Shown: piece after piece, positions 6,300 to 47,254 of the stretch | Layout: every line of letters starts with the position of its first letter | Numbering within the stretch: position 1 is the stretch's first letter | Assembly: GCF_964355755.1 (NCBI RefSeq) | Contig: NC_092673.1 | Coordinates: 33,363,648-33,427,647, forward strand | Direction: 5' to 3' | Source: Antedon mediterranea | Taxonomy: Eukaryota; Echinodermata; Crinoidea; Comatulida; Antedonidae | Length of the DNA: 64,000 bases | Position numbers and translations under genes: made by a program | Notes under the pieces: generated by a model | The model's database searches: none | What the model was told of the DNA's origin: nothing | The model's input: the letters and a program-made list of their open reading frames with translations, nothing else

Positions 6300-7960
6300 T
6301 AATGGTCGCTAGACATGATACCGCTCATTTATCGGGTGATATTGCCATACAACATCTATTTAAACAATAAAAACTTTACTGTTTTCAACAATCAAATTCT
6401 AATCAAATTAATTCATCTTAAGAAGTTTCCGCCGATGCCTGAAAATTTGCTTATAAATTAATTCGGTTATAAATCAAAGTTAATTAGCATATAAATAGAA
6501 AATAAAGAGTGAGTTTTAATTACTTCAATCTTGAATAATGGTAAGTTAACAACATTCAGCTCTGGTTTGACTTTTTAGATTTGCCTACAGCGTCAGATCT
6601 AATTTAATTCGACAAAGATAAAACCGGCATAAAAAGAAAAATAAAACTCAGTAAACTATATAGATGCATTATGGTTGCCATGGACACCAACTGTTGATAA
6701 TAAGGACAGCAACGTCATAATCCGTAACATAGTTACAGCATCAGTAATTTGAATTTAGATAATTCCAAAGATTCTCTGATAAAATTTCAATTTTTCAGTT
6801 TTACGTACCAAAATAACAATGGTATAGGCCTACTGTAGGGTTATTGTGTTTCAAAAAGCCGTTATTTAACGGTAAGCCAAGGCCGATGTGTTTTCAGTAA
6901 GCCTACTATATTTGAAAAGCGGCGTGTTTTTTTTAAAGTTATGCTATATTTCTTTAAAAATCGGTATTTTTTCTGAAAAAAAATATACAGTAGGCCTATA
7001 GTCTATTTTATATCTTTCTAAAAAAAGGGTAGTCTATATGTTTCTTTCAAAAAGGTAATGTATGTTTCTTTAACAAATGTATAGATCTATGTTTCTGAAA
7101 AAAGGTAGTCTACAGCATGTTTCTAAAAGTCACGGCATGTTTCTGAAATCCGGTAAGTACTAAAGGCCGACATGTTTCTTAAAACCAATATGTAATTTTC
7201 TAAAAACCGCTGTGCCATATTCTTTAATAACCGGTATGTTTGCACCGGTATTTCTTTAAACCGGCATCCATATTCCAAAACAACCGACAGGGGATTACCC
7301 TTTCGCTGTGTTCTTAATGTCGACCAAACCCATCCAATTACTGTTTCCTTTTAATTATCAACGGTTTCCAGGCAACGACCAATTATCGAGCAACTAACAT
7401 TTTGCATCAATAAACTATATACTGTAGGCCTACCTATGAAACGCCGTAAGCGCAAACATTGTTAGCAAAGCAACGATGAAGTCGATTGACCGTCTAGACT
7501 CGTAATGTTTTGCAATTATCAACTTGTGTTTAAACATTGGTGTTAATTTGACTCGCCATAGACAAGTGAATTATTGACTGACTAGTTTCCCGACTAAATG
7601 CAATTTCGAACAAGTAATTGACATGACTAGAGTACGAACGGAGCCAGTGGTCAATTTCCTTACCGTTTTGCATAATGTATCTTACTTATCAAATTGTAAT
7701 TGCATACTGTATATTATTGTATACCCTTAATTTATAAATAATCTAACTTATGCACAAAACGAAACTTTGTTCTAAACCTTCTGATAAAACCACACGACTG
7801 ATACTTGCATCGATAAAATTGTTTTGTTAAAATGTATTTTTAACTCAAAAGCTGCGTCGTTCGGTTATTCTTGGCCATTTTCTCTACGTCACAATAGGGT
7901 CAAAGAAGGGTCATCGCGAATCACCAACTACGGTGTCCGTCTAATAGACCACGGGAAACG

Positions 7961-8287
7961 GCTAGTTGCCTGTATATCTACGTATTACAGGCTAGTTGCC
8001 TGTATATCTACGTATTACAGACTAGTTGCCTGTATATCTACGTATTACAGGCTAGTTGCCTGTATATCTACGTATTACAGGCTAGTTGCCTGTATATCTA
8101 CGTATTACAGGCTAGTTGCCTGTATATCTACGTATTACAGGCTAGTTGCCTGTATATCTACGTATTACAGACTAGTTGCCTGTATATCTATGTATTACAG
8201 GCTAGTTGCCTGTATATCTACGTATTACAGGCTAGTTGCCTGTATATCTACGTATTACAGGCTAGTTGCCTGTATATCTACGTATTA
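7961..8287. repeat. 30-bp minisatellite, about 11 copies
   Basis: The unit begins GCTAGTTGCCTGTATATCTA. Copies are almost identical, with only a few G/A and C/T differences, so the array is young or homogenised. Because 30 is a multiple of three it creates a spurious repeat-protein frame (7824-8291). Confidence 0.97.
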
Positions 8288-18158: not shown

Positions 18159-19070
18159 TTCCTTTCTATTTTTAAAAAGAATATAAAATAGAGCTTATAA
18201 AAAAAAAAAAAAAAAAAAAATAGAGCTTTTAGTTTAAGGTACATTGATTAAGGTATATTAACATTAATTCTCAGGTCTCAGCAAGAAAAATAAAGTAAAC
18301 CAGAGCAGAAGAACGACTAAATGAAATAAAAGACGTCCATTATTATTATTCTTATTATTAATATTATTATTATTGGAAGTATTTTGTACTCTCATAATGA
18401 AATGTTTGAGCAATATGGAAATAAACAAACAGTACCCCTCTTTTTATCATCCCATTCGATTATCTGTACTGTACCTCTATATGGCATTATGGTCAGTATC
18501 ATAGGCAATTGCTGTAATACAGCGTCACATATAACATCTGTATTACTGTAAGATGTAACACTGTATCACAGTGAGAATTTGCTTATGATACCTTAGAAAT
18601 TATAGAGAGAATCGACTAATCATCCAAAAGGAATACGTGTTGTAGCAATACAGTATGAAAAAAAAACATTGTAACGTTGAAAATGTTTGTTATGCTTTTT
18701 TATTATTTTTACAACATATGCCCGCAGGCCGATAACCAGAATGTTTCCACACTTAATAAATAAAAAAAACTGACCGTGAAGCATGACTTTAAACGAAGGG
18801 CTTAGCTCGAATGCTGACAGACAAGACGATGACCCTAAACTGTGTAATTTGGCCGAGTTTATACTAATGTTTTTCCTTCATCAGATAAGTGAACGATTAA
18901 CTACAGAATCAATATATAGTGCGCATTACAGTATATGCAGTACGTAGGAGTAGCGTTGAAGTCAGTAGTAAAGAGAATATTTAACTTGATCCATTTCGAT
19001 CTAACAAAAAAAATGCTGGCTAAAAGAGGAGTCCGCTACAATAAAGATATTAAAAAGAGATTGGTGTCGG

Positions 19071-19232
19071 ATTCAGAGCAAACCTACGTCTAGGAGTCCG
19101 AGCAAACCTACGTCTAGGAGTCCGAGCAAACCTACGTCTAGGAGTCCGAGAAAACCTACGTCTAGGAGTCCGAGCAAACCTACGTCTAGGAGTCCGAGCA
19201 AACCTACGTCTAGGAGTCCGAGCAAATCTACC
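19071..19232. repeat. 24-bp minisatellite, nearly seven copies
   Basis: Unit GAGCAAACCTACGTCTAG followed by GAGTCC, nearly invariant. The minus-strand frame (repeating RFARTPRR) is a by-product of the 24-bp period. Confidence 0.95.
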
Positions 19233-27725: not shown

Positions 27726-28480
27726 TTCCACTGTCCACTATCTCTATCTGTCCACTATCTCTATCTGTCCACTATCTCTATCTGTCCACTATCTCTATCT
27801 GTCCACTATCTCTATCTGTCCAATATCTCTATCTGTCCACTATCTCTATCTGTCCACTATCTCTATCTGTCCACTATCTCTATCTGTCCACTATCTCTAT
27901 CTGTCCACTATCGCTATCTGGCCACTATCTCTATCTGGCCACTATCTCTATCTGTCCACTATCCCTATCTGTCCCCTATCTCTATCTGTCCGCTATCTCT
28001 ATCTGTCCGCTATCTCTATCTGTCCGCTATCTCTATCTGTCCACTATCTCTATCTGTCCACTATCTCTATCTGTCCACTATCTCTATCTGTCCACTATCT
28101 CTATCTGTCCACTATCTCTATCTGTCCACTATCTCTATCTGTCCACTATCTCTATCTGTCCACTATCTCTATCTGTCCACTATCTCTATCTGTCCACTAT
28201 CTCTATCTGTCCACTATCTCTATCTGTCCACTATCTCTATCTGTTCACTATCTCTATCTGTCCGCTATCTCTATCTGTCCACTATCTCTATCTGTCCGCT
28301 ATCTCTATCTGTCCACTATCTCTATCTGTCCGCTATCTCTATCTGTCCACTATCTCTATCTGTCCGCTATCTCTATCTGTCCACTATCTCTATCTGTCCG
28401 CTATCTCTATCTGTCCACTATCTCTATCTGTCCACTATCTCTATCTGTCCACTATCTCTATCTGTCCACTATCTCTATCT
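27726..28480. repeat. 17-bp minisatellite, about 44 copies
   Basis: Unit CTATCTCTATCTGTCCA. Since 17 is not a multiple of three and the unit has no stop in any forward frame, all three forward frames stay open, giving two overlapping spurious proteins of 274-307 residues. Between about 28254 and 28410 units ending CCA and CCG alternate strictly, a 34-bp higher-order repeat. Confidence 0.97.
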
Positions 28481-31352: not shown

Positions 31353-31497
31353 TTAGTCAACAACAATTTCTTCTTCAGTTTCTGGATCTTCTTGTTCTTG
31401 GTCGGGTCGCGGTAAAGGATGTTTACAGTACGCCGAACCGCAACAGCAATTAAAATATTTGGATTTGATTGCCCAGAATTTATCACCATAATCAAAC
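31353..31497 (-). CDS. EHMT: EHMT last exon, SET end and post-SET
   Basis: 145 nt. [15 protein letters not shown] supplies the catalytic tyrosine and the phenylalanine position linked to dimethylation specificity; [10 protein letters not shown] supplies the three post-SET zinc cysteines (CxCxxxxC), with an extra cysteine between the first two. A short acidic tail ends EEEIVVD and TAA. No clear AATAAA polyadenylation signal was identified below 31353. Confidence 0.98.
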
Positions 31498-34400
31498 CTA
31501 TAAACACATTAATTGAAGTTAAAAACAACATAGCATACAGTAAGACACCTTTGGGACAAAACATAATGTCTTCCTTATAGGGGTAAAAATGCACAAAATT
31601 TATTTTGTGCACATGGGTGAAAGATAGTCGCACAAAACCGAAGTCAATGAAGCAACTGCTCAAACGTTGACCCACTCAATTACAGATTATTAAATGTACA
31701 GTTACCTTGCCCAGTGGGCTAGGAGGAAAAAACGAAATTAAGCAAAAAAAAAAAAAATCAAAATCTAGGAAGCAAAAAAAATCCTTTGTACATACCCTAA
31801 TTCTTCATAAGCATCAACGTCGCGAGAGGTAAAAAAGACAATGCGTGGGAACCTCAAATCGTGGTGGTCTATGAAAATCCTAACCGGTACAATATTTGGC
31901 TCACATAAATGGTTAATGAATCTACTGATATTGCCATAGTAACGTGCATCAATACAATACACATCTCCTTCCTGGAAAAACAATGTTTATTATTACCATT
32001 ACTTGTTTTGTGGACAAAATAAAACAAGTAAAATCAGTAAACTGTGCCGGTTAGTTAGGAGGTTGTTACACTAAATGGCACTGTGTAATCCAAATCTAGT
32101 GAAAGCCTCTATTACAGGGACACCCTCAGGACTAGAAGATTTCAAGACTGTGTCCCTCTTGACCACCAGAACATATTATTCCTATGGACTGTATTTTAAC
32201 TTTGCTGTATACAAGTTTTTGGTAGCATAAAAACATATAGTTCCCTTCGTAATAAGGGTACTGTAGTTCCTAGGACGACAAGATACAGTACTAGGAGTTC
32301 GATGATAATTTTGACCTTATAATAACCTTGACGTTTCATCGGTTGATAATATCTCAAAGTAAAACAAGAGTACAGTAGCCAAGTGTGCAATACATCACAA
32401 TTTGCAGAATGCTACTTACCCTATTGTCTAAATCAAAGAGGTAGGAATCATCTTGTCTTCTATCTGCTTCTTCATCTGATATTAACTCGCCAGCATATCT
32501 GGAATAATAAGAAATAAAGCATACGTAAATATTTTATTTTAACATTAAACAAAAAACCATTTGTTGGCAGCCAATTTGACTAGTTTTTGCTTTAAATTAC
32601 AGTTTTTTCAGGTAAATTAATTTTTTTTCAATCCAATTTTAGTATGTAACATTAAAATGGCGTATTCAACAAAACATTTTTTCAGGGGGAGAATTCATCT
32701 TTAGGAATCAGTAGAAAATAATATTTGTAAAGAAACAAAAACAGTTAAAAGAGTCTTAAGCTCTGTCTAAACCATCAAACTAGTTTGACAAAAAAAGTGT
32801 GCCCAAATACGGTAATGATATGCCCAAAGATGGTAGTGATATGACATCATCATGTCAATATATGGGCACATCACATTTCACATAAAGTTTGACAGTGTAG
32901 ACAGAGCTTTAAATAAACAAAACTTGCTATTACTTACTCGCATATAAATGTTCCTTTGGGAATTTTCTGCATCGCCCTCAATCCCCAACCCATTTTATTC
33001 GTTCTAAACAGTTGAAGATGACAACGGATGCCATGCTGAACGACACGATTCTTGCAATTCATCCAACAATTACACGCTCGACCGCACTCAAAGATTAACG
33101 GTGGATCCTGGTAATTGAACTCATCGACAAGCTTGCCATTCTAAATTTTAAAATAAATTTTTGTTCATTTAAATAATTTTTAATTTTAGATTGGGAAATT
33201 GTATTGCAGATTATGATGTTTTAAAGGTGGCCTCCAGGGTTGAAATATTTAAATCTTGAAATGGAATTGTATTTAGCCATAACATCGGCAAGAGGCTCAC
33301 TCACTCCATGGTTCTGGTGGTAGAATGAGTGTTCTCGAATAAGGACTATAAACCGTATACACATTTAGCTCATGTGCACTTTAAAAATCTAGTGTATCTA
33401 TCGAGACAAGTAGGGGGCTACCCCGGTATACTACTACAAACAGTCACCATCACACACAACAATAACTGGGCCCCTGGGAGAACAGTCTCTGACTGAAGAG
33501 GCTACCCAGTATAAAGAAAAAGAGATTTAAAAAAAGTATACCTTGTTGTACCAGCATTTTGTGCTACTCTGGCAACAGAAACAGGAATCCAATGCACAGT
33601 CATCATCACATTTGCAACCCTACAATCAATAACACAAAAAAATTATTAAATAAAACTCAATCAAAATGATTCAAATACATACATGATAAGCACCTGGGTT
33701 TAATGCAAATAAGGTGATTATATATCCTAAAAGGCACAGCTACTAATTAACATAAACATTAAATTCTCTACAGAGGAATGTAGTCATTGAAGAAAGAGTA
33801 AAACTTGTTGATAGGGGTGTCTACTGAATATGGGTCGGCAGTAGTATATTACATATTTTTTCCTGAGTTCGTTTTAAAGAAAGTGTCTCATGCGACATGT
33901 GATAAAAAAAAAAGTGAGAAGAAAACTGTCAAAATATGCACCTTCATGTGGATGATACGTCTGTCAATGTTTAACGATGATTTTTCGCAGCTATTTGCTA
34001 CATACAGGAAATCAGTCGGAATTGGAAAATTATCGACTGCATTGACAACTTGGATTGGTCTTGCCTCCCGACCTCGTGAAATATCCCTAAAAACATAACA
34101 AAGAATAAGTTAACATCTACCGGTATCAGGTATAACCAACCAAGTCAAGTTGCAGGTAAGGCAGAGGCATCACAAATAAAAGTTACAAAATCGACACCGG
34201 TTGAAGGTACTCCTTCCCCACAGTTCTGATGGTAGGACAAGTCTTCTTGGATAAACTTCTAACTGGAGGTCCATTGTACACAACTGGCACAAGAACCTAG
34301 TGTATCTTTTAACATGTTGTGGATAGACGAATGAGCTGCAACACTATCTAGAGATGGTAGGAGCGGTATTTATTAAGTTCAGTTAAAAAACTCTGCATGA

Positions 34401-37400
34401 AACGACCCTTAAAATGTTTTGGTTTAATATTATTGTCAACATTAACAGATCTTGTCTTACTTTGACAGTATTCGCTCTGACCGAACAGTACGCAGCGCAG
34501 AAGCCTGACGTATTTTCTGGTTTACTTGTAATGCAAGATACACATTAGACTTGGCATCGCAACAATCTAAAGCTGTGTCCTTTTCTCGATTTTTCAAGAG
34601 TGTGTTTGCTTCTCGCATCAATAACGTTCTGAAAATTACAAATGTTAGACAAAAGAGTTTCATTATAGTGCTATGACACCATAGCTGGAAAGAAGGAAAA
34701 ATGGATGATAAAATTACTTTTTTAAATAAGCTAATTATTAACGTTTGCATAGTAATTAATAAATTACCATACTTATTCGAATAAACACAATAGGGTTTAA
34801 TAACACATTTCAACAGTATTTGTAGTAGAATTCACGACTTCCAAGAGCTACAATTTACCAAGCATTTTGATACCATTTTTACTGTATTTTATCACTTCTT
34901 GATATTATTTGTGTTGTATTTTTTCATATCTAGGATATTTTTTTGGTTAATACATTTTACCATATTAAACCCATAAAAATAAATGCCTCCCAAACAATTA
35001 ATTTCCCAAAGCATTTATTCGAATTAAATATGATAGCTTATTCTAAAAAAAAAAAAATTGTATCATCCATAAAACTTAAGAAGCCAAATGAAATTCTTTG
35101 TAGAGGAACGAAAAATGTTAGCATTTATTATCATTATATTATGCTCATATTATTAAGAAGCGGTTTAGTGACTAATATTCTACTGAAGTTTCAAGTGTTT
35201 AACTTACACAACGCTATCATATCTATCCTCCCTGGCAGCAATATGCCTGAAAAAATTAACACAATAAGCTTACTTACTCAAATTTGATAACTATCAAAGT
35301 CTTTTGCATGCTTGCAGGTAGATAATTTAATTTTTTATTTTGTTGATGATAGGATTATATTACTTGATAATGAAAACATTAGGATAGAATGGCTTTTTAT
35401 AATTGTGTTTCCATTACTGTTTTACCTTTTAATACGAGACAAGCATTATAATTTTTGGACGAATAAAGATATTTTTCTTATCTTTTTTGTAATATATAAT
35501 ATATTAACGTAATAATACTGTTACTAAATACTCAATAGTCCTTGATTAAACAGGCCAACTTTGAACAATAATTATTATAGATTAGTTTAAACAATAGAGG
35601 GTGTTACACTTACAAGGGCGTGTCTCCATTATGATTGGCAGCATTCACGTCACAATTGCTTTCAATAAACAGTTTGATGATGTCATGGGCACCAGCATAG
35701 GCTGCCCAATGCAACCCAGAGTTGCCTTCCTAAATGTGTCAAAAAGATTATAGTAACAACACAAATGATGGCAGTATATTGTACAGAAACAGTACTGTAA
35801 CAGAATACAAGGCTGCAGTGAGTCTATTTTACGATAACAGAACAATTCACATTATACATACCTGATCTGTGATGTTAGGATCACATCCTCTATCAAGTAA
35901 ATGTTGAACAACGTCTAAATGCCTAGCCTCTGCACCCCAGACTAGTGGTGTCCAGCCACCATCATCCTGCAATGTACAATCACATTGAAAGACTAAACGT
36001 TGATTCAGCTAAGAGCTGTCTATAAGCACCAGATTGTCAGTGCTGTATCTTGTTTGTTTGTTTGTTTTATTTGATTTCCACAAATAATACATAATATATT
36101 TCATTATAAATAATTAGTTAACTATAAATGTGGATGGTGGTCAAAATAAGTCTAAGAAAAAGCAGAGACCATATGACAATATTTGTCCAGTATAACAGGC
36201 AACTTCCATAATACAGCATTGTATCAAATTTGGTGCTTTTATCATGAAAGGTTAGGGTCTACCTATCTACGATACAGGTGACACATGCGTGAAACACAGA
36301 ATTTGCCTACGATATTGGACAACTTTAGATACAGTATCGAGAAATGGGTGTAATAAGAAACCTGTAATAACAACAAATGTTTACCTGGATGTTAACGTTG
36401 GTAACAGAGAGTGAAGTGAGATATTGGACACCTTCTAAGAAACCATTCTTTGCTGCTATATGTAAGGCAGCCGTACCTTCATCATCCTGCGAAAAAAAAA
36501 ATCCATAAACATTTACAGTTTACATAAACAGTTTCAATGTGTTTGTTAATTATAAACTACATCTATCTAGTTATAGTATTATATCAAAGATTTTTTTCAT
36601 TTGAATAAAGTAATTTTAGAAAATCTAAATGGTCCTGGGCTTGGTTAACTACTTTTTCTGCTCCTGACCAGTCATCCATTCATTTATTGAGGAAGAAAGT
36701 CTGGCGGTAAGAATGCGCCAAGAATTCAATTTCTACCTCTTTTAGTTGACAAGATAAAGGTATATTTGTACTGTAAATTGAAAATAAAATAACATCCGCT
36801 CCATTTCATACAATTAAGTCTCGAAAAATGTGACCTTGGGAAGAGGTCTTCTGAAGCCAAACTCCTCACCTTACAACTGACGTCAGCTCCATTGAATATA
36901 AGCTGTTTGAAACACTCAATGTGCTTGTTTGCTGCTGTGCACATCAGGGGTGTCTGTGTGTCCTCATCTTTGGCATTGCAATTACCCCCAGCCTGTAGCA
37001 GCACATACAAGATGACATGATGACCCTTCGTGGCGGCGGCATGCATCGCAGTTTCGTAATTGTACTCAGGAAATCGATGATTGGGATCAAATCCTTCAAC
37101 TATAGTAAGAAGTAAAAAAAAAAGCATTTTCAGAAAACTTCTGCCTCAAGACCTTGATTGACCTCTTTGACTACTACATCCATGGCACATGAGCTTAGAA
37201 CAGGTTCAAGAGAATGAAAAATGCAGATTGGTCAAACATAAAAAACATGCACTCTAAAATTTTTTCTATAAACTATAGCAGAAAAAATAGTTTACTTGAC
37301 TCAACTGAACGATAAGTTTAAAAAGCTAGTTTAGTAAACAACAATTAGAAACACTTCAAGAAATAAGTAGTTCTATATTGTACTAAAGGTTTACTGTAAC

Positions 37401-40400
37401 ATTAATGGTGTTAGTGTATTTTGTCTATAATTAGCAGTCTATATACTGTATATTATTTATAATTGTAGAGAAACTTGTAATAAAATGGAGTTTCTTACCT
37501 AATAAGGCAATTACTTTCATCAGATCTCCTTTCAAAGATGGTAAATACAGGTTTTTAGGAGTAAATCCAAGCTTCTTGGACCTAAAAGGGAAAAAATGAT
37601 CACAAACTGAAACACACTACAAAATAGTTTTTAAAAAAAGGCATGTTATTGGGAAAAGTCCATATACATTTAACTTTTTAGAGATGGAAAATGACTGCAA
37701 ACCCAATTCTGAATATTAAGCATGCATTTTGCAATCCAGACCTTCAAGAAAGTAGAAATATTGGTGATTCAGATTTGATTTGTTCAGTCATACCTAATGA
37801 CCTAATAAAGTCTACTTTTTAGCAGATTTCTTAATTTAGTTGGAATTTTCTTTACTTTTATGCACAAAGGCCAAGAATTGGAAGAAGACTTACTTGAATG
37901 TATTAATACACTTTAGTGCAGCAATTAGTGTACTTCTACTTGGTCCAACAGAAAGAAAATCTAGGAGAAAAAATAGTTTTGATAGTAAAAATGGAGTGTC
38001 ATATTAGAGAAGTCCTAAGACCAGGAGAATCACCAGTTCTAGAAACATGTTTCTAAATGAACATGAGAAGAAGTAAACTTGAAGAGTGCAATGGAAATCC
38101 AGTCAACTCTACCAATACTGGACTTTCTGGAAAACTGGAAACTCTTCCAAAACCAGACCTTTCTTAAGGTTCAAAAGGTGCCAACAACACATTCATAATA
38201 CCAGACTTTCCAGCAAACCATAATAGGTCAGGACCAAGGGTGTCCGGTATTGGGAAGGTTGACTGGATAAGCTTTACATAAGTAATAGCAAGCAAGCAAA
38301 CCTGTGCATATGGACTTTCCATTTTTCAATTTAACGGAACATGATTCCTTATCCTGCTCATTTTCTTCAGGATTGTTGGGTAAACACAATGATTTACCTC
38401 CCATTCTTGCCCTGCAGAAACAATTACATAACAAATGAAGAAAAGACAGATTCTTGACAATCACAAGAAGTGCAAATCACTACAGTACATATAAATTATC
38501 ACAGCATAAATTAGCTACTTGGTTGGTATCAAGATTTATTAAACAACAATGAAGGAAATCACATGAAAATATATAATTTCACAAACCTTTTATTACTACT
38601 TTCATATTGCTCAATGAAACTTGGAATGATGTTGCTTTCAACTGTTTCCAACAACGCTATCGGCAGTCTAATCTGCCGCTGCATTTGCAACTCTTGTGCC
38701 GTGATAAGAGAAAGATTATCTGGAATGATATTAGTAACTTTGTGCGCTCTGGACGCATCTTCACCACAATGAGGACAATACAGTGTATTGTTGACCTCGG
38801 CAATACATTCGCTGTGGAAATGATGACGTGTGTGATCTCGTCGACACTCCATAAATGTTCCCTATAATCAAATTAAAAATAAGTAATTGGTTACACATAA
38901 ATATATATTTTTTATGTTGCTTCTCTAGACCACTTATACTTAAATTAAGAAAATCAGACTTTGAATAGGCCATTTTGTAGTTTTAATAAAGTTAATCACT
39001 TCTGAAAAACCAGAAAAAATAATGTTTTCGTTTATAAAAAGACAATTTAACAAGTAAAATTCAACCAAAAACCTGTTGGTTTTTACTCTTTTTTGCTTTA
39101 AATTACAGTTTTTTCAGACAAATGTTTGTTTTTTTTTATCAAATTTGTTTGTCAAAGTGAGAACCTATTATGTGACATTAAAATGGCATATTTAAAACAC
39201 AAAAAAATGAAAAAAATTGATTTTCTGTGGGACAATATATCTTGAAATGTTTATCAAAAAATTCTTAAACTTACCATTGAGCAAAAGCAGCCACATCCTG
39301 GACACCAGCCATGAACAAGTGCTTTTCTCCTGTGACAAATACAATTAAATAGTTACTAAAAATTCTGTACATGACCGAAAAAAGTAAAATAAACAAAATA
39401 TCAGTAAGGTGTTGACACTTTTAGAAAAATAATATAAAAACTTAGAATATAGTAGAACATCTCATCTGGGACACCTCTTTTAAGGTGACACTTTCTAATA
39501 AGACAGTTTGGGACACTTGAAAGGTCTTTTCTAATGAAACAAATGTGTTTCATTGTTACGTTACTTTACCTGTGGTCTTTACAAAGTGTTATTGCAGAAA
39601 TTTTTGTTGATGGTTGACATAAAACAGGATATTCAACTTTTTCTGTACATAATAATATCTGTTAGAAAAACAAAGACGTAAATAGAAAGGAAATCTGAGT
39701 AGTAAAAAAAAAACATTTGTGAATGGAATCAATTAATAATGATCAAAAATCTCAAAACTTTGTGTCCAAAAACTCAATAGGGTTGGTGAAATTCAGTCCA
39801 AAATACGCAGAATTTTTTCCAAAATACGTCAAGTTGAGGGCGCTATACTAATCCAAAATACGCGAGTCTTTCCAAAATACGTCAACTTGAGGGCGCTATT
39901 CATTTTTCAAAATACGCGAATTGTCAAAAATACGTCAAGTTGAGGGCGCTAGTCATTTTCAAAAATACGCGATTTGTCCAAAATACATCAATTTGGAACC
40001 ACTTGTAATTTTCCAAAATACGTCAACTTGAGAGCGCTATTCATTTTCCAAAATACACGATTTAAATAATTACTTTACTTCTTCTAACCAATTATTGATA
40101 TTATTTTAATCACAATACCATATGCTTTTTATTATTATATATTATATGAAATAATTATTATGTTAGATTTCAGATTAGGTAACTTATTAGACCATAAGTA
40201 CTGCGATGTTGGTCTGTCGAGCTCGGGAAAAATATCGATTTTGTAGATCACCAAATATATAACACATACCTGACATACATGACTATACTTAAATACTATA
40301 TACGTACATGCTGGTTTTGTAGTCGGTTTATGCCGCATTTAAACTAGCTACGCCTGGCAATGCAATCGTACATCGTTCAGACAATATTAATGTATATTAT

Positions 40401-43400
40401 AGGCACTGTCTATTGACTGATGTTGGCACATATTTGTTTTTATTCAGTAATAAATGACATTGAAAAAAAATAATTGGCTACTATGGCCCCGTTTCTGCTG
40501 CCAAAAATATACCGTATATTTTATATACGGTATATTTTTTGGCAGCAGAAATGGGTCTCATAAAAAATATACCGTATATATTTGCGGTATATATACTGCA
40601 TAAATATCCCCATCGTTTGTGGATATTATACGGTATATTCCAAAATATACCGTATATTTCGTTCCCCGTTTCTGCTGCACTCAAAATATACCGTAAATGT
40701 GACCCGACTCATGACACGAGGTCAAAAACTAACAGAGCGCGACGCGTTTGTTTTGGTTTTTCTGCTGCATTGAAAGTTGAAACACACGTGTAAAAGCAAG
40801 CAACAGATCAAAATGTCACTGTGGACCGAACAAATCACTATTTTTGCAATTCAATTGTGGGGGGAAGCGAAGGTTGGGGGGAGACTGCATGGCAACAGAA
40901 GAGATACCGAGATTTTAATTACAATAAATCGAATGTTCTTACACGACAACAACGTTGATACTGTATAATAGAAAATGGAAATTAAAACGGCAATATAGGA
41001 TAATATAGCATAATATAAACTCAATTTGAATAACAGAGTTTATTTATAGTGACATTTCTAGATTGTGCTTGTATGTGCGGTGTAAATTCGTTGCCACTTC
41101 TGCTCATTAGATTTAAAATAGAAAGCAATGCTACGACGTTTTGAGAAACCATCATTGTTTTGTTTTTGTCAGCATGTACCGGTAGGTAAAAACCTCACTA
41201 CACGAGGTCAATCCATACTTCCGTCTCACGAAATGCATTTTGGGTAATGAAAGCCAACTTTTTTACAACCCACCCACGAAGTATGTGCAGCGGAAACGGT
41301 GCACGAATTTCATATACGGTATATATACGGTATATTTATACGGTATATTTATACGGTATATTTTGGGTTGGCAGCAGAAACGGGCCCTATGACATTTTAT
41401 TTACAAAAAATTCTGCCTTCTAATAATTTCATTTACAACTAAAATGTACTTGTTTGTTTTATTCCAAGAAACTTTTTTTAATACATTAAACTGTAATTTT
41501 ACCTTACACTCTCAATATGATACATTTGGAAAGGCTCTCGTATTTTGGAAAAAAGATTGCCGCCCTCAAGTTGACGCATTTTAGAAAATTAATAGCGGTC
41601 CCAAATTGCAAATTGACGTATTTTGGACAAATCGCGTATTTTGGAAATGAATAGCGCCCTCAATTTGACGTATTTTGGACAATTCACGTATTTGGGATAA
41701 TTTATAGCGCCCTCAACTTGACATATTTTGGACAATTCGCGTATTTTGGAAAATGAATAGCGCCCTCAAGCCGACGTATTTTGGAAAGACTCGCGTATTT
41801 TGGATTAGTATAGCGCCCTCAACTTGACGTATTTTGGAAAAAAATCTGCGTATTTTGGACTGATGTTCACCAACCCGACTCCAAAAACTGGAATTGCAGC
41901 AATTTTAAAATGGATATTATTTTGTGATACATCTTAAATATCTTTAATAAAATTAAATTTGTCACTGTCTGGAGAAGTTTGATTCCTGCAGCAGCCATTT
42001 TGTCTATCTAGGATCACATGACTGCAAAGAATGTAAAGGCTGACTCTTTTTTGATTCATCGAGTTCATAAACCTCAGCAAACTAGTTTGTCAATAAGGTG
42101 AATAAAGGTTTTCCAAAGTTTTCCAGACCATTTGACAAACTTTGGAAAACTGCAGAAAACAAGTTTGCAGAAGTCTACATTTAGCAAAATTTAACAGAAT
42201 TTGCAAACTAAAGTTTGCTAGTGTAAACAAGACTTTATTTTTAAAATTCATGATTTAAATTTTTGATTTTGAAAAGGTTGAATAACTTACCCCTCCGTCA
42301 ACATATTCAACAGCTTCACATATCCCTGAGTTAGTCTGGCTAGAGGTATTTTCCATTAAACAACAGCATATGGATGTATTCACCTACAGAATAAAGAATT
42401 TCATTCAGAAATGAATCCTTGAAATAGCCTTGGATATTTATTTCTTATACATAGGCCATTAGACCAAATACAACCATATATAAGATCAACTTGTGCTCTC
42501 TGACCCAGAGATAAAAACAATGGAACATACCTTTATATTTTTCCTTTTTGTGCTCTCACATGTTTCTAGTAAACAAAAATTAAAAGAAATTAATTTAATT
42601 ATTAAACATTAATTGTAGAGTAGTACCCTTCCTTTGGAACAGCTCTATTCTGGGGACACATTAAGGAGATACTTTGAAACAATCAAGGGGAATGACAGTT
42701 TTTGACAAGTGTTACCAACCTGATAGTATCGAGTCATCGAAAACAGTAGTGGAAACCCTAGGTTGTACAGTTATGTCTTCAGAAACCTCATGCTGATTAT
42801 CTAAATATCATTAATAGGAGTAAAAGTATACATGAAAATAAACATAACCTTTTTTTCAGTTTTACTAAAAAATATCATACCTCAAAAGTGAAAAGCTCCA
42901 TCTAAACTATAAAACTTTATGCGACAACAAAATGTGATGTGCCCATATATAGACATGATGTCACATCACTACCAAATTTGGAAACATCACATTTATTTGT
43001 CAAACTAGTTTGATAGTGTACACATAGCTTAAGAAATCAACATCATATTAAAAGTGACATAAAGAAAGTGAATTACCTATGGCTTCCAAACGTTTTAACT
43101 TATTTTTTTGTCTCATCTGTTGTGCTCGGTACTCATAGGTCACTTTGCGTTTTCTTTTCCGTTTTTCCTCAGCTTTCTTCAATGAGTATTCAGTTTCTGT
43201 CAGTTTGTTTTTCAATTTCATTTGATTCATTTTAAAGGTATTCTGGGATGGCTCGTTGAGTTCTGAAGTTTGTTCCAAGATTTCTGGATATAAATCAACA
43301 GACATATTTTCTTCCAAACTCTCTGTTACTTTATTATTCCATTGTTTTAAGTTTTTTTTCATGTCATTTAAATCAATCATCTCAACTTTTTGAAAATGTC

Positions 43401-46400
43401 CATCATTTTGTTTGATGTCTTGAGTAGGATTATTCGAAACCACATTATTTGTTATTTCTGATGCTTTGATGCTATTACTTTGTATAGAGTTTTTACCTAG
43501 TTCATGATTAGAAACAGATAAGAAAGACATTGATCCAGACACGTTAGATCCATTTACACATGATTTAAACAGTTTAACTCTGTCGGTACTAGAGTCAGTA
43601 TCTTTCACTACTTCAGGTTCAGTGCATTTTAATGGAATACTTCTTTCAGATTCTCGTTTTATTGATTTAAACACAGAGAAAATGTTGTCTATTTTATTTC
43701 CTCCTTTTGCAGGCAAAATGTCTTTGTCCGATTTCTCATCCTTTCTGGAGAGTTGTACCTCTTGCACTGGAATTTCAATTGCGCTTTGATCATATTGGTT
43801 CCTGTCAGAAACATTTTGTTCAACTGCTGAATTTTTGGTTGTATTAAGTAATGTTTGAGAAATTTTAGAATTTCCATCTGACAAATAATTTTTATGTAAT
43901 TTGGAATTTTCATCTGCAACCGATTTCTTATCGATCTTTTCGACAGAATCAGGTGAAGTAAAAGATGATGTAACAGGAAGAACAGTTGGCATCTGGTGTT
44001 GTATTACAACTTTTTGTCCTGTGTTGCTTGAACCTAAACTAGTAATTGGCGAAGATGTTGGTAACAATAAGCTAAGAGGGCGCTCTCCATTTTTTATAGG
44101 TGCTTTTGACATATCAACTATACTCAGCAGTTCATTGACTGTCCGACCTTTAACTAAATTGGTTGGAATAAGAACGTTTGCTTTTGAAGCTTTAACACAG
44201 TTCAGGAGTTTTGCAGAGGCCAGCAAAGAATTTGTTTTTTCAGTTAAAATATTTTCTTGCTTATCACCAACATCTTGTATTTTATGTGTTCTATTAAATT
44301 TTTTATTTTTGAACATTTGAATTTGCAAAGGTCTTTTGTGTGCTTTTTCGCGGAAAAAATTAATTCCGTTTTTATGTTCTATGTTCCGTTTTACTAATTG
44401 TTTCTGGTTTGGTACAGGTTGTTTTTCTTCATCACTTGACTGACTTGATTGAAATCTACGAGGTGCCTTCCTTTTTCTTTTACCTCTTCGGATATCAACA
44501 CCTTTTCTAGATGTTTTCTTCAAAAAATTGTTCACAGATGTTACAGGAACTTTATGTTTTGAAATAAGATCATTTACTGGTATCTTCACTGTCCCTGGCA
44601 AATCTAATCCATTTTCTACAGCTGTGGCAATCTGAGGTTTTTCCACTAATACCCCAGTAGACTTTTGACGGTCAGATTGTCCAGGTATAGGAACCAGTAC
44701 ATAATTTGTAACAATGCCTTTGTTATTAGTTTGTTTTAACATATGCATTTTGTTTGCAGATTGCAAACACTCCTGTTTTATTGTTTTATTTAAATCTTTG
44801 CATTCAGGTGTATTTGAAAGCGAGGTAATAGATTTTCTGGCTGTTTTTGGAAGTGAGGAAACAGACTTCTTGGCTATTTCTACGAGTGAAGGGACAGACT
44901 TCCTTGCTATTTTTTTAAGTGAAGGAACAGACTTCCTGGCTGTTTTTAGAGGTGAATGAACTGATTTCCTTGCTGTTTTTGGAAGTGAAGGAACCGACTT
45001 CCTTGCTGTTTTTGGAAGTGAAGGAACCGACTTCCTGGCTGTTTTTAGAGGTGAAGAAAATGATTTTCTTGCTGCTTTTTGAAGTGAAGGGAGAGACTTC
45101 CTGGCTGTTTTTGGAGGCGAGTGGAAAGGCTTCCTGGCTGTTTTTGAAAGTGAAGGAACAGACTTTCTGGCTGTAAAATAGCGATGAGGTTTACAAAGAG
45201 ATTTCCGAGCAGTTAATTTATGATGCGGAGGTGGAACATATAAAACTTCAACACATGAATCACTGGAATCATCCAATGTAAACGAAGAATCCGACTCCTC
45301 TGAAGTGCTGATTAAAATTCTTTTGCTCATTACATTGTTTGATTTTCTATCTTTCAATGTGGAATTTGTTTGTAAAATTCCTTTTTTAGTGATGCCATTC
45401 ACACAACTTTTTCTAGCTGTTGGAATGAAACCACAATTGGCTTTCTTATTTTCTACTTTTAAAAATAAAACATCATTTTCGGATTCTTCTGACGATGTTA
45501 GAATTGGTGGCTTTGCATTACATTCCTCTTCTAAGTCATGATCCACCGTTCCATCTTTATTTACGGTAAGTACAGAACTCGATACATGACTAACCATTTG
45601 CATGTCCATAGTTACCTCTTTAACCACAAGATGAGTACATGGTGTGACTGTCGGTTTAACAGCTTTTTTTAAGTAATCCTTCTGTCTCAGACCGATATTA
45701 ACAGGTCCTTTAAAATCACTACGTGGAATGGGTTGTTTAGGATGACTATCTAGAAGCTTATTATCCTTTTTCAATGTTTTCTGAAAATACTCTGGTACCC
45801 TGCTTTCCGAGTGATCAGAAAGCAATTTTCGAGCTGCAACATTTATAGACTTTGGAGATTCCTCTTTTGCAAGAACAAGTTCCTCATAAGCATTTTCAAC
45901 TTCATGGCCTAATTGTTTCCATCTTTTTTTTTGTGAACTATAACCATCCATGCTTGGAGACCAGGTTTTATCAGTATCCGAAGCAGAACTCCAATTTTCT
46001 GATTCAGTAAACTTATCAGACGAATGTTCCAAGTCAGTTTCATCAGGACTTAGCAAGTTAAGAGTTGTTTGAAAGTTTTTGCCTAATATCTTTTGAGCCT
46101 GCTCATTAATTTTGTCATGTTGGTTTGTACAGTTAGTGTTATTTTGAATACCAGGTGAAGTAACTATTGTTTCTTCTGCAGCTTTCTTATCTGGATTTTC
46201 AGTTGGTAATTCTTTACTCATTCCTGCAACTATTGGCAATGATGCATCAGTTGTTTCAAGACTCCTTTCTTTTTTCTCTATAGAGTCGGTTTTCACTAGT
46301 TTTTCGTCAAATACATTGATTTGCTTGGTTTCCATTTTACCATTGCATAAACTATTTGAATGTTTATCGCCAGCTTGTTGTTGGTTTTCATCAGGTCCTG

Positions 46401-46444
46401 TCATCTTTCTTTTCTTTACAAACACTTCCAACACATTATAGTTT
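31353..46444 (-). CDS. EHMT: EHMT (G9a/GLP-type) histone H3 lysine-9 methyltransferase, 22 joined coding exons
   Basis: Nuclear SET-domain enzyme that mono- and dimethylates H3K9 using S-adenosylmethionine and normally works as a G9a/GLP-type dimer. The 22 exons listed below join with matching phases at every junction (5,842 nt, stop TAA at 31353-31355) and give about 1,933 residues from the ATG at 46404; human paralogues are about 1,200-1,300, and the excess is N-terminal. Domain order, counted from that ATG: disordered basic/acidic N-terminus with the H3-mimic array (about 398-531); cysteine-rich RING-like zinc region (about 1150-1320); ankyrin repeats (about 1380-1660); pre-SET with the nine-cysteine pattern (about 1660-1770); SET (about 1770-1890) with NHLCEPN and GFDYG; post-SET CxCxxxxC near the C-terminus. 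A single gene with features of both EHMT1 and EHMT2 suggests an unduplicated invertebrate orthologue. The true N-terminus is unresolved: the exon start is in phase 2, so at least one upstream coding exon or a start inside this exon is needed. Confidence 0.97.
31796..31971 (-). CDS. EHMT: EHMT exon 22, SET catalytic core
   Basis: 176 nt beginning [20 protein letters not shown] and containing NHLCEPN, which holds the cofactor and substrate-channel residues. It ends EELG, phase 2, donor GG|GTATGT. No catalytic residue appears altered. Confidence 0.99.
32420..32498 (-). CDS. EHMT: EHMT exon 21, SET domain
   Basis: 79 nt encoding [20 protein letters not shown] and FDLDNR, matching vertebrate [21 protein letters not shown]. 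Confidence 0.99.
32556..32706. mobile_element. MITE family D, partial copy in EHMT intron
   Basis: Contains GCTTTAAATTACAGTTTTTT and AACATTAAAATGGCGTATTC, both shared with the copies at 38930 and 63561. Confidence 0.6.
32759..32908. mobile_element. MITE family A in EHMT intron 32499-32937
   Basis: AGCTCTGTCTAAACCATCAA to GACAGTGTAGACAGAGCT with TTAA at the left and TTTAA at the right. Its right end is 29 bp from the donor of the exon at 32938. Confidence 0.88.
32938..33140 (-). CDS. EHMT: EHMT exon 20, pre-SET end and SET start
   Basis: 203 nt including [20 protein letters not shown] (final pre-SET cysteines) and [19 protein letters not shown], the SAM-binding start of SET (GWG motif). Donor GA|GTAAGT. 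Confidence 0.99.
33262..33530 (+). mobile_element. tRNA-derived SINE copy in EHMT intron
   Basis: Shares long stretches with the copy at 57020: CTCACTCACTCCATGGTTCT, GGACTATAAACCG, GAGTAGGGGGCTACCCCGGT and GGCTACCCAGTATAAA. It lacks a clean promoter box. It fills most of the 401-bp intron. Confidence 0.8.
33542..33619 (-). CDS. EHMT: EHMT exon 19, pre-SET zinc cluster
   Basis: 78 nt, phase 0 at both ends, encoding [19 protein letters not shown] and KCWYNK. The CxCxxxC and CxC spacing is that of the triangular Zn3Cys9 cluster of SUV39-family pre-SET domains. Confidence 0.98.
33942..34086 (-). CDS. EHMT: EHMT exon 18, pre-SET start
   Basis: 145 nt encoding [19 protein letters not shown] and later [12 protein letters not shown], matching vertebrate DVARGYExxPIPCVN and MNIDRNITHL. 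The donor AAG|GTGCAT is weak beyond the GT. Confidence 0.97.
34190..34335 (+). mobile_element. Old SINE fragment in EHMT intron
   Basis: Diverged copy of the same SINE: CCCACAGTTCTGATGGTAGG, GGAGGTCCATTGTACACA and AGAACCTAGTGTATCTTT are recognisable. Confidence 0.6.
34461..34628 (-). CDS. EHMT: EHMT exon 17, last ankyrin repeats and linker
   Basis: 168 nt. [20 protein letters not shown] matches the final ankyrin helices and [10 protein letters not shown] matches the vertebrate linker RTEKII or VERIVS before pre-SET. Donor AA|GTAAGA, phase 2. Confidence 0.97.
35210..35248 (-). CDS. EHMT: EHMT exon 16 (39-nt microexon), ankyrin helix
   Basis: Joined to its neighbours this encodes [14 protein letters not shown], in exact register with vertebrate LHIAARENRYDCVM. 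Acceptor TTTTTTCAG. The donor that keeps the frame is TT|GTGTAAGT at 35209; a stronger GTAAGT lies two bases further on and would break the frame (see findings). Confidence 0.93.
35614..35729 (-). CDS. EHMT: EHMT exon 15, ankyrin repeat
   Basis: 116 nt beginning [20 protein letters not shown], with the third cage tryptophan (LHWAA) conserved. It ends TT|GTAAGT inside a leucine codon, phase 2. Confidence 0.98.
35862..35966 (-). CDS. EHMT: EHMT exon 14, ankyrin repeat with methyl-lysine cage residues
   Basis: 105 nt, phase 0 at both ends, beginning [20 protein letters not shown]. Both tryptophans and the glutamate that form part of the H3K9me1/me2 reader cage in GLP ankyrin repeats are present, so the reader function is probably kept. 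Confidence 0.98.
36053..36160 (-). mobile_element. Retroposon-like element with GTTT tail
   Basis: (TTTG)n followed by TTTTATTTGATTTCCACA and GTGGATGGTGGTCAAAATAA. A related copy starts at 47255. Orientation inferred from the simple-repeat tail. Confidence 0.5.
36385..36486 (-). CDS. EHMT: EHMT exon 13, ankyrin repeat
   Basis: 102 nt, phase 0 at both ends. [20 protein letters not shown] matches the vertebrate repeat SEEGRTCLHHAAKIGNLEMV. Confidence 0.97.
36870..37099 (-). CDS. EHMT: EHMT exon 12, ankyrin repeats 1-3
   Basis: 230 nt. It contains FDPNHRFPE, then MHAAATKGH and LLQAGGNCN, then [18 protein letters not shown], which are ankyrin helices in register with vertebrate EHMT. Donor AAG|GTGAGG. 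Confidence 0.98.
37499..37581 (-). CDS. EHMT: EHMT exon 11, ankyrin repeat 1 start
   Basis: 83 nt encoding [20 protein letters not shown] and KVIALL, matching vertebrate KKLRFHPRQLYLSxKQGELQKV. Phase 2 in, phase 1 out. Confidence 0.97.
37894..37960 (-). CDS. EHMT: EHMT exon 10, helix leading to the ankyrin repeats
   Basis: 67 nt encoding [20 protein letters not shown], which aligns with the vertebrate segment LGPGREALEKALVIQESER just before the ankyrin block. Acceptor CTCCTAG, donor AA|GTAAGT. Confidence 0.93.
38099..38266. mobile_element. MITE family E in EHMT intron 37961-38301
   Basis: 168-bp foldback: CCAGTCAACTCTACCAATAC at the left, GGTATTGGGAAGGTTGACTGG complementing it at the right, with AT-type dinucleotides at both junctions. 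Right end 35 bp from the donor at 38301. Confidence 0.85.
38302..38411 (-). CDS. EHMT: EHMT exon 9, linker
   Basis: 110 nt, phase 2 in (completing R) and phase 1 out. 36 residues including [15 protein letters not shown], an unstructured acidic linker between the zinc module and the ankyrin block. Kept on phase, splice sites and location. Confidence 0.88.
38587..38861 (-). CDS. EHMT: EHMT exon 8, FHxxC and [10 protein letters not shown] zinc segment
   Basis: 275 nt starting GTFMECRRD and containing HHFHSEC and [13 protein letters not shown], the end of the EHMT RING-like zinc module, followed by a less conserved linker. Donor AAG|GTTTGT, phase 2. Confidence 0.96.
38930..39244. mobile_element. 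MITE family D copy in EHMT intron 38862-39274
   Basis: Shares AATCAGACTTTGAATA, AATAATGTTTTCGTTTATAA and the terminus GGGACAATATATCTT with the family. Right end 30 bp from the donor at 39274. Confidence 0.75.
39275..39329 (-). CDS. EHMT: EHMT exon 7, HGWCPGCG zinc-ligand segment
   Basis: 55 nt encoding [18 protein letters not shown], the counterpart of vertebrate MVKHxCCPGCGYFCTAG. Donor ATG|GTAAGT. The preceding small intron is largely one MITE copy. Confidence 0.95.
39570..39658 (-). CDS. EHMT: EHMT exon 6, cysteine-rich region continued
   Basis: 89 nt, phase 0 in and phase 2 out (AG|GTAAAG). 29 residues including [16 protein letters not shown] and LCKDH, matching the vertebrate segment that ends in LCEDHR or LCETHR. 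Confidence 0.93.
39775..41879. mobile_element. DNA transposon F with subterminal tandem repeats, in EHMT intron
   Basis: Inverted arms (about 39775-40068 and 41538-41879) start GGGTTGGTGAA and consist of four to five roughly 60-bp direct repeats of AAAATACGTCAAGTTGAGGG CGCTAT type. Direct repeats TCCAAAAACT at 39765-39774 and 41880-41889 could be a 10-bp target duplication. No transposase frame is visible, so it is non-autonomous. Element G is nested inside. Confidence 0.8.
40485..41386. mobile_element. Foldback element G nested in F
   Basis: Left end GGCCCCGTTTCTGCTGCC and right end GGCAGCAGAAACGGGCC are inverted; CTAT lies on both sides (40481-40484 and 41387-41390). Each end carries copies of TATACCGTATATT. 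The first 70 bp (40485-40556) alone form a near-perfect hairpin, so a second terminus copy sits inside the left end. Confidence 0.78.
42291..42383 (-). CDS. EHMT: EHMT exon 5, start of the cysteine-rich region
   Basis: 93 nt, phase 0 both ends, 31 residues with an ICCC cluster and the segment [11 protein letters not shown]. This aligns with the vertebrate EHMT segment that runs from LCSCRM to the MATESVD motif at the beginning of the RING-like zinc region. Confidence 0.92.
42531..42565 (-). CDS. EHMT: EHMT exon 4 (35-nt microexon)
   Basis: 35 nt between acceptor GTTTACTAG and donor AAG|GTATGT. It encodes [12 protein letters not shown] when joined, a short lysine-rich linker before the cysteine-rich region. 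Phase 1 in, phase 0 out, matching both neighbours. Confidence 0.8.
42720..42800 (-). CDS. EHMT: EHMT exon 3
   Basis: 81 nt, phase 1 to phase 1, acceptor TGATATTTAG, donor G|GTTGGT. It encodes about 27 residues ([13 protein letters not shown] and onward) without a recognised domain. It is kept because its phase fits both neighbours and the frame is open; a skipped form would also preserve frame, so it could be an alternative exon. Confidence 0.75.
42893..43030. mobile_element. MITE family A in EHMT intron 42801-43076
   Basis: AGCTCCATCTAAACTATAAA to TTTGATAGTGTACACATAGC with TTAA at the right. It makes up half of the 276-bp intron; right end 46 bp from the donor at 43076. Confidence 0.82.
43077..46444 (-). 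CDS. EHMT: EHMT exon 2 (provisional number): giant N-terminal exon with H3-mimic array
   Basis: This exon is 3,368 nt with acceptor CCTTTTCCCCTCAG at 46445 and donor G|GTAATT at 43076. The open frame starts after one phase base and contains an ATG at 46404 (A at -3) just after a KKRK basic patch. The encoded 1,120 or so residues are low in hydrophobics and probably disordered. Visible pieces in order: AARKL (45823-45837), SSEES followed by DVLFLKV, an isolated TARKS (45406-45420), a second serine/acidic stretch ending CVEVLYV, a TARKS unit at 45199-45213, eleven 11-residue TARKS-type units (44812-45174), a basic segment [10 protein letters not shown] that could be a nuclear signal or AT-hook-like patch, and a basic C-terminal end [12 protein letters not shown]. 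Vertebrate EHMT proteins also have a poorly conserved N-terminus with one ARKT mimic, but not a repeat array that I know of. Confidence 0.95.
44812..45213 (-). repeat. EHMT: 33-bp coding repeat encoding tandem H3K9/H3K27-like mimics
   Basis: Eleven units of exactly 33 bp run from 45174 down to 44812, preceded by one unit with a 13-residue spacing (TARKS at 45199-45213). The consensus unit is [11 protein letters not shown]. In order the twelve cores are TARKS, TARKS, TARKP, TARKS, AARKS, TARKS, TARKS, TARKS, TARKS, IARKS, IAKKS, TARKS. TARKS equals histone H3 residues 6-10; the AARKS unit is preceded by K, giving KAARKS as around H3K27. The residue after S is V, L, F or I in every ARKS unit. 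Three units contain an SP dipeptide. The frame is kept through every unit, and unit-to-unit changes are mostly synonymous or conservative, which argues for selection on the peptide. Confidence 0.95.
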
Positions 46445-47254
46445 CTGAGGGGAAAAGGTGTGCATTATAAATGAATGTTCAGTACAAAATCACTGGAATA
46501 AATGAAAAAAAAAGGAATTCTGTAAATATTTAGTATGAATCGTTGGCAGTCACAAAAAGATGATGCTGCATGGTATTTAAACATTTTTCGCAATTTAAAA
46601 AAAATAATGTCGCCAATGGTGCAACACTGTAAAGAACATGACCTAAATATGGGGGTGAGTTAAATGGCTGTATTCACCAATCAAAAACAAGTTTTCATTA
46701 TTTTCACTAATTGAAGTCAATCAAATTTCAGGTCAGTAGTACCTAGATAGAAGAATTTATTTTTTCCCAAATCTAAGTGCGATACATAAAGCACTTAGTA
46801 CTGTAGAGTAGCTGTATTATTGTAGTAGCTGGAGTATTTTTTGTCCTACCCTTTTTGAATAAATGTTATTGAACTTGAGTTAAAACAACAATATTTACAT
46901 TAAATATACAGTAATGACAAAACCTTGTTACAATCTCTTGCGTCAAGTAAACTAACTACCCAGGTTAGAGACAATCTTCTACTGTATACTACAGTATAAA
47001 ATTATATTTCTAACCAAAAAAAAGTTTCCCAGAAAAATAAAAACACACTCATTGTTTGACACAGTTTTAGAAATGGAAATAAATGTAGTACCAGAACAAA
47101 AAAAACATGTGAAAAGACGGTCAGTGTTAAGTTTGTCTAGGCAAATGTGAATACTGGTAAAAATACTAATGGTAGATCTATATTTAAACAAAATCTAAAC
47201 TTCCGTTTTCAAAATAACTTAATAAGCATTTTTTTCTTTTCTGAAGATAATGTT

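Follow-up and report, generated by a model that had tools for sequence, protein, structure and literature searches.

A tandem array of ARK-type histone-tail mimics in the N-terminal part of an EHMT from the crinoid Antedon mediterranea

We found that the EHMT gene of Antedon mediterranea encodes, within its first long coding exon, twelve ARK-type units that resemble the histone H3 tail. Our preferred reading, to which we assign a probability of roughly 0.55, is that this array would serve as a selected, multivalent platform for auto-methylation and reader docking. The array is in frame and its cores are kept, a SET domain and an ankyrin cage lie in the same chain, and the genome contains H3 genes and an HP1-like locus. 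Counting against the platform are a second crinoid, Anneissia, that is without the array, and ARK-free repeats in the N-termini of other EHMTs. Coordinates below are positions in the window, that is, the whole 64,000-nucleotide stretch of DNA that was analysed. The features are as follows.

31353..46444, minus strand: complete model of the EHMT gene with 22 exons, 1933 codons and a stop (splice-site model; identical to the public protein P0001)
43077..46444, minus strand: first long coding exon, residues 1-1109, which holds the array (acceptor CCCCTCAG, donor ATAG|GTAATT, phase fits the next exon)
44812..45213, minus strand: array of ARK-type histone-mimic units, n=12 (direct reading, codon table, repeat finder, selection tests)
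45406..45420, minus strand: lone TARKS site upstream of the array (direct reading; aligns with TARKSC of Anneissia)
38587..42383, minus strand: EHMT-specific Cys-rich region, exons 4-7 (PF21533 EHMT1-2_CRR, E 1.2e-25; exon table)
34461..37581, minus strand: ankyrin repeats, exons 10-16 (PF12796/PF00023; methyl-lysine cage residues at G9a spacing)
31353..34086, minus strand: pre-SET, SET and post-SET, exons 17-22, with the stop codon at the end (PF05033, PF00856; PDB match)

All twelve units lie in one open minus-strand frame of 1138 codons (43048-46464), where they start at residues 418, 431, 442, 453, 464, 475, 486, 497, 508, 519, 530 and 541. The spacing is thus 13 residues once and then 11 residues ten times, which puts 11 of the 12 units in a 33-bp register, and Tandem Repeats Finder recovers the same array as 11.1 copies of 33 bp (78% matches, score 380). 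The core reads TARKS in eight units, ARKS in two more (AARKS and IARKS), TARKP in one and IAKKS in one. Lys is present in every unit, preceded by Arg in 11/12 and followed by Ser in 11/12; the K+2 residue is hydrophobic in all twelve, and three units end in S-P-x-K. Two extra ARK sites are found 5' of the array in the same exon, the lone TARKS and an AARKL at 45834. Counted as ARK[ST], the Antedon protein carries 11 N-terminal sites preceding the Cys-rich region.

The exon model of the host gene was built from canonical splice sites, with phase agreement as the test. All introns are GT-AG, the phases agree and there are no internal stops across the 22 exons; the first in-frame ATG is at 46404. 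An initial wrong-gene reading was dropped when two small exons (42800-42720 and 42565-42531) and a linker exon (37960-37894) brought all phases into agreement. The model equals, letter for letter, a public Antedon mediterranea protein of 1933 aa annotated as 'uncharacterized protein' (P0001), which probably goes back to the assembly that the window is taken from and so backs the exon model, the unit number being that of one assembly. The protein runs from the Cys-rich region through ankyrin repeats to Pre-SET, SET and post-SET, with PF21533, PF12796/PF00023, PF05033 and PF00856 above their cut-offs. For the catalytic part, the top PDB match is EHMT2 (5jhn, E 3.7e-125), and annotated EHMT proteins match the model at 48-78% identity over the covered part. 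Judged from these domains, the host gene is a true, complete EHMT (G9a/GLP, KMT1C/D) with predicted H3K9 mono/dimethyltransferase activity. The first-pass annotation had proposed both the complete orthologue and the array at 44812..45213, with eleven units at 11-residue spacing, eight TARKS and two more ARKS; its counts and coordinates proved exact, and the host assignment was borne out by the 22 exons, the EHMT-specific Cys-rich, ankyrin, Pre-SET and SET domains and the presence of the array in the annotated protein.

No Pfam domain was detected in the first long exon at E 1 and, together with the composition, this absence suggests that the N-terminal region is disordered. A tblastn search of the EHMT protein on 8 of the 17 genomic SET loci returned its own gene, five others at no more than ~43% identity and two loci without a match, which makes a single EHMT copy in Antedon likely. 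As a separate observation, the intron between exons 4 and 5 contains an inverted repeat with 238-nt arms (39780-40017 and 41639-41876) that are 88% complementary, lie 1621 nt apart and are built of 53-bp subrepeats; it is a foldback or MITE-like element.

We asked how rare the array is. Elsewhere in the Antedon genome no comparable array passed among the 70 candidates scored, the next match having E 0.014 and internal stops. When the array region was compared with 5.8 billion proteins (2046 candidates), only the Antedon protein reached E <= 1, in a search that covered proteins of ~1063-3383 aa, such that shorter or longer hosts, or arrays too diverged to share words, would escape it. Among the open-licence papers listed on histone mimics and G9a automethylation, the titles and abstract openings yielded no description of a multi-copy mimic in an EHMT, and no paper on EHMT in crinoids was found in the open-licence literature.

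To place the array among its relatives, we collected the best 120 of 1542 matches at E <= 1e-30 and all 43 matches at E <= 1e-5 from EHMT-region searches. The resulting set comprises 139 different proteins, including many vertebrate isoforms and no ophiuroid, and ARK[ST] was counted N-terminal to the Cys-rich anchor in 138 of them (P0019, which is without the anchor, was left out). Seven proteins had no site and 125 had a single one, with 2 sites in one protein, 3 in one, 4 in two, 7 in one and 11 in one. Every one of the six proteins with at least two N-terminal sites is from an echinoderm: Antedon (11), Asterias (7), Patiria (4), Anneissia (4), Acanthaster (3) and Strongylocentrotus (2). Diadema, Lytechinus and a partial Apostichopus protein have one site each, and the Ptychodera EHMT has none before the anchor and one after it. 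Thus, the non-echinoderm EHMTs scored have at most one N-terminal ARK[ST], unlike Antedon with its 11 sites, head-to-tail 11-residue spacing and H3K27-leaning flanks. The earlier suggestion that no EHMT with such an array was known therefore needs qualification: the 11-residue array is confined to Antedon among the proteins scored, but five other echinoderm EHMTs carry 2-7 sites.

The nearest orthologue found, Anneissia japonica LOC117120307 (P0002; 78% identity across 97% of the region used as query), is also the sole other crinoid found. A comparison with related orthologues, which the first-pass annotation had put forward as a check, cuts both ways here, in that Anneissia is without the 11-residue array yet carries four ARK[ST] sites in the corresponding region. 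Two of the four lie inside a doubled 49-residue segment with LTARKTLPKT. In an alignment of the two crinoids, only the TARKSC and LTARK sites are common to both, and by eye the Anneissia YFKARKSVPS resembles the start of the Antedon array. The simplest reading is that the array arose in the Antedon line by multiplication of a site resembling YFKARKSVPS.

Among sea stars, the Asterias rubens EHMT2-like protein (P0006) resembles Antedon in having ARKS sites tandemly repeated in the N-terminus, five of its seven sites being spaced by 43, 43, 43 and 41 residues (the repeat scan covers four of them, the fifth was added by eye). It differs in that the core, AARKSAPYS, sits in a long unit (AARKSAPYSRN...), and we read it as an independent array. 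Residues ~195-330 of the Asterias protein contain the exact H3 heptapeptide AARKSAP (H3 24-30) four times at 43-residue spacing. Overall, the 138 N-termini hold eight distinct tandem repeats, of which three include the motif, with units near 11, 43 and 49 residues, and five do not. Repeats as such are therefore unremarkable, and what stands out is the three that multiply the mimic. Since their unit lengths and sequences differ, we read them as independent gains, and the mimic appears to have been multiplied more than once within echinoderms, the Antedon array being the largest among the proteins scored. The ARK-free repeats occur in Diadema, in Saccoglossus, as two acidic runs and in Bemisia; that of the sea urchin Diadema antillarum (P0003, residues 51-87) is a Lys-rich tandem repeat of DLSK type.

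We next considered whether the units could have accumulated without any function. Shuffling the 1216 pre-anchor residues gave a mean of 0.046 ARK[ST] sites, compared with the 11 observed, and none of 500 shuffles reached 11; together with the codon tests below, this rules out chance or low complexity as the source of the array. The alternative that survives best, albeit as an unlikely one, is neutral minisatellite growth: slippage within a disordered region would have copied a 33-bp stretch that by chance contained an ancestral ARKS site, and the added repeats would be functionless. It is favoured by the abundance of minisatellites in the window, by the ARK-free repeats just listed and by Anneissia, which manages without the array. 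The codons argue otherwise. When the 11 equally spaced units were compared codon by codon, dN/dS between units was 0.062 for the ARKS codons (0.038 for ARK alone) versus 0.927 for the six spacer codons, which indicates that the cores were preserved after duplication. Ala and Lys are unchanged in 11/11 spaced units, with two codons in use for each. The 51 single-base departures from the consensus unit fall into 14 silent and 2 non-silent ones in ARKS, 9 and 23 in the spacers, and 0 and 3 in the first codon (T). Under random placement with the transition share kept, 13.3 non-silent departures would be expected in ARKS where 2 are seen (P 5e-5), and counting each distinct change once leaves 2 versus 7.1 expected (P 0.014), the safer figure because the units share history. 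Fisher tests on hand-counted deviant codons gave 1e-5, or 0.011 for distinct types, and the excess of non-silent changes in the spacers is non-significant (14 versus 9.9 expected, P 0.07). These patterns point to purifying selection on the ARKS cores between units while the spacers drifted. Slippage of a functionless repeat also sits poorly with the sea stars, which multiply the motif too, at another unit length. With the key letters apparently kept by selection and the motif multiplied differently in sea stars, EHMT may methylate its own tail and use it to dock silencing proteins.

The machinery for such docking is known from vertebrates, in which the N-terminal mimic is automethylated and binds HP1 and CDYL (PMC8541646, PMC6180122, PMC9768651), the G9a/GLP mimic being needed for a coactivator role (PMC8541646). 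Binding to the mimic is opposed by Aurora B, which phosphorylates the position that follows the methylated Lys of G9a/GLP (PMC6180122, PMC8541646, PMC9768651). The vertebrate sites (K185 and K239 of G9a, K205 of GLP) share with Antedon the enzyme family, the region N-terminal to the Cys-rich domain and the A-R-K-S/T core. G9a had been credited with a single mimic at the outset, which is incorrect, as a review names two H3-like automethylation sites, K185 and K239 (PMC9768651). The Cbx3 chromodomain binds G9a K185me1/2/3 with Kd values of 28, 9 and 14 uM, and buries the Ala of its ARKS/T motif in a tight pocket that fits only a methyl side chain (PMC3325965). Ten of the 12 Antedon units fit this Cbx3 motif (PMC3325965) and 10/12 fit the four-residue EHMT target motif of PMC10611923, TARKP and IAKKS failing the latter. 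Two reports count against the platform: in ADNP the ARKS motif matters, yet the methylated ARKS peptide failed to bind HP1 (PMC3022755), and Sampath et al. (cited in PMC8541646) saw no change in G9a enzyme activity upon automethylation.

The reading side is likewise represented in Antedon. G9a recognizes methyl-lysine through W839, E847 and W877, with E870 and D905 as further mutants (PMC4255711), and Antedon W1521, E1529, E1552, W1559 and D1587 correspond to G9a W839, E847, E870, W877 and D905 with identical spacing. At the level of residues, the ankyrin methyl-lysine cage is conserved, and binding is predicted. H3 genes were found in the Antedon genome, and a locus on C2 near 6.725-6.728 Mb has a chromodomain across two exons and a chromoshadow match, the Pfam matches being partial; its open frames read EFQVE...YFLRWKGY, which we take to be HP1-like.

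If the array is indeed such a selected platform, the SET domain would methylate many of its lysines, in cis or in trans, and the methylated units would bind with high avidity chromodomain proteins of the HP1 or CDYL type and perhaps also the ankyrin repeats of EHMT itself. For a mimic with many sites, avidity for any such reader should rise; in place of a weak single-site contact (9-28 micromolar for methylated G9a K185 and Cbx3), EHMT would bring to its sites of action a scaffold that recruits readers strongly and tunably. Phosphorylation of the Ser after each Lys by an Aurora B-type kinase may then release the docked readers.

The same Ser permits another interpretation, in which the R-K-S-hydrophobic cores form a cluster for Aurora B/PKA-type phosphorylation, or the positive charge of the units serves to bind DNA or nucleosomes, and methylation is secondary; we regard this as quite unlikely. 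R-x-S followed by a hydrophobic residue suits Aurora B, and the near-invariant Ser, the hydrophobic K+2 and the three S-P-x-K ends would fit such a cluster. However, all 11 spaced units have Ala at -2 despite its two codons, these kinases are not known to us to need Ala there, and the unit in which Pro replaces Ser still retains ARK. Of the published findings, phosphorylation by Aurora B next to the methylated Lys of G9a/GLP speaks for the cluster (PMC6180122), and the Cbx3 pocket, which accepts only a methyl side chain at -2, speaks against it (PMC3325965).

We also examined which part of the H3 tail the units resemble. Over 10 residues around the Lys, the nine units after unit 1 with intact ARK[ST] match H3.3 K27 at 6-7/10 positions versus 4-5/10 for K9, while unit 1 and the upstream TARKS lean to K9 (6 and 5, versus 4 for K27). 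The first-pass annotation had called the units mimics of H3K9 (residues 6-10), a description that suits unit 1 and the upstream site better than the nine K27-leaning units; with these flanks the label is too narrow, and ARKS-type mimic is preferable. Pro at K+3, a feature of H3K27 that H3K9 does not have, is found in 27/41 distinct EHMT ARK[ST] contexts, and in 116/118 sites once the named invertebrates are excluded.

From these flanks one could propose that the readers of the array are of Polycomb type (EED, CBX) instead of HP1, which would link EHMT to PRC2. Besides the nine units and the common Pro at K+3, the exact AARKSAP of four sea-star units fits this proposal, as do reports that G9a/GLP methylate H3K27 in vitro (review PMC9768651) and that PRC2 is activated through EED by methylated ligands (PMC11980035). 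Still, we consider it decidedly unlikely. The one H3 locus read in the Antedon genome has Ala at position 31, so that units with Ser at +4, recounted by hand, lose one K27 match, and unit 1 and the upstream site are nearer to K9. Moreover, Cbx3 buries six residues that do not include Pro at +3 (PMC3325965), and the vertebrate sites that bind HP1 share it. Highly improbable is a pseudo-substrate decoy, in which unmethylated units would fill the enzyme's own peptide groove and throttle EHMT until methylated: Clr4 is restrained by a loop and freed by automethylation (PMC9768651) and twelve tethered substrates would imply a high local concentration, but the Clr4 loop lies within the catalytic domain whereas over 1000 residues separate the Antedon array from the SET domain, and G9a automethylation is reported to leave enzyme activity unchanged (Sampath et al., cited in PMC8541646).

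A bolder extension of the auto-methylation and docking platform, which we put forward tentatively as unlikely, would unite in one EHMT chain the roles of writer, reader and multivalent substrate. HP1 and the ankyrin cages of further EHMT molecules would bind the methylated units, so that the enzyme would self-assemble on its own product and be activated in trans before methylating nucleosomes, and phosphorylation of Ser in mitosis would switch it off; the mimic would have been multiplied at least twice (the crinoid 11-residue and the sea-star ~43-residue unit), possibly replacing the vertebrate G9a-GLP heterodimer. In the vertebrate enzymes, methylated substrate appears to stimulate G9a/GLP via the ankyrin domain, and formation of the heterodimer may lift autoinhibition (PMC8564726). 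PRC2 offers a parallel as a self-methylating silencing enzyme (EZH2 loop K510/K514) whose product is bound by a reader in trans, its site being a short loop instead of a tandem array (PMC11980035).

While the G9a/GLP mimic itself is already known, its repeated multiplication in echinoderm EHMTs appears to be new. Here a histone-tail sequence has been multiplied, as a predicted modular docking site, within the enzyme family that writes and reads that sequence, and the phylum offers a natural valency series (1, 2, 3, 4, 7 and 11 sites) with which to test why a silencing enzyme methylates itself.

EZHIP, a PRC2 inhibitor of placental mammals, likewise combines a histone mimic with a 33-bp tandem repeat; unlike in the Antedon EHMT, the repeat as described is separate from the mimic motif and the protein is a non-enzyme (PMC12713659, preprint). 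Further tandem repeats are present in the window outside the gene. A 17-bp minisatellite of 44 copies lies at 27731-28480, ~2.9 kb downstream of the EHMT stop, with all three plus-strand frames open, and two others are found at 7960-8287 (30 bp x 10.9) and 19069-19231 (24 bp x 6.8).
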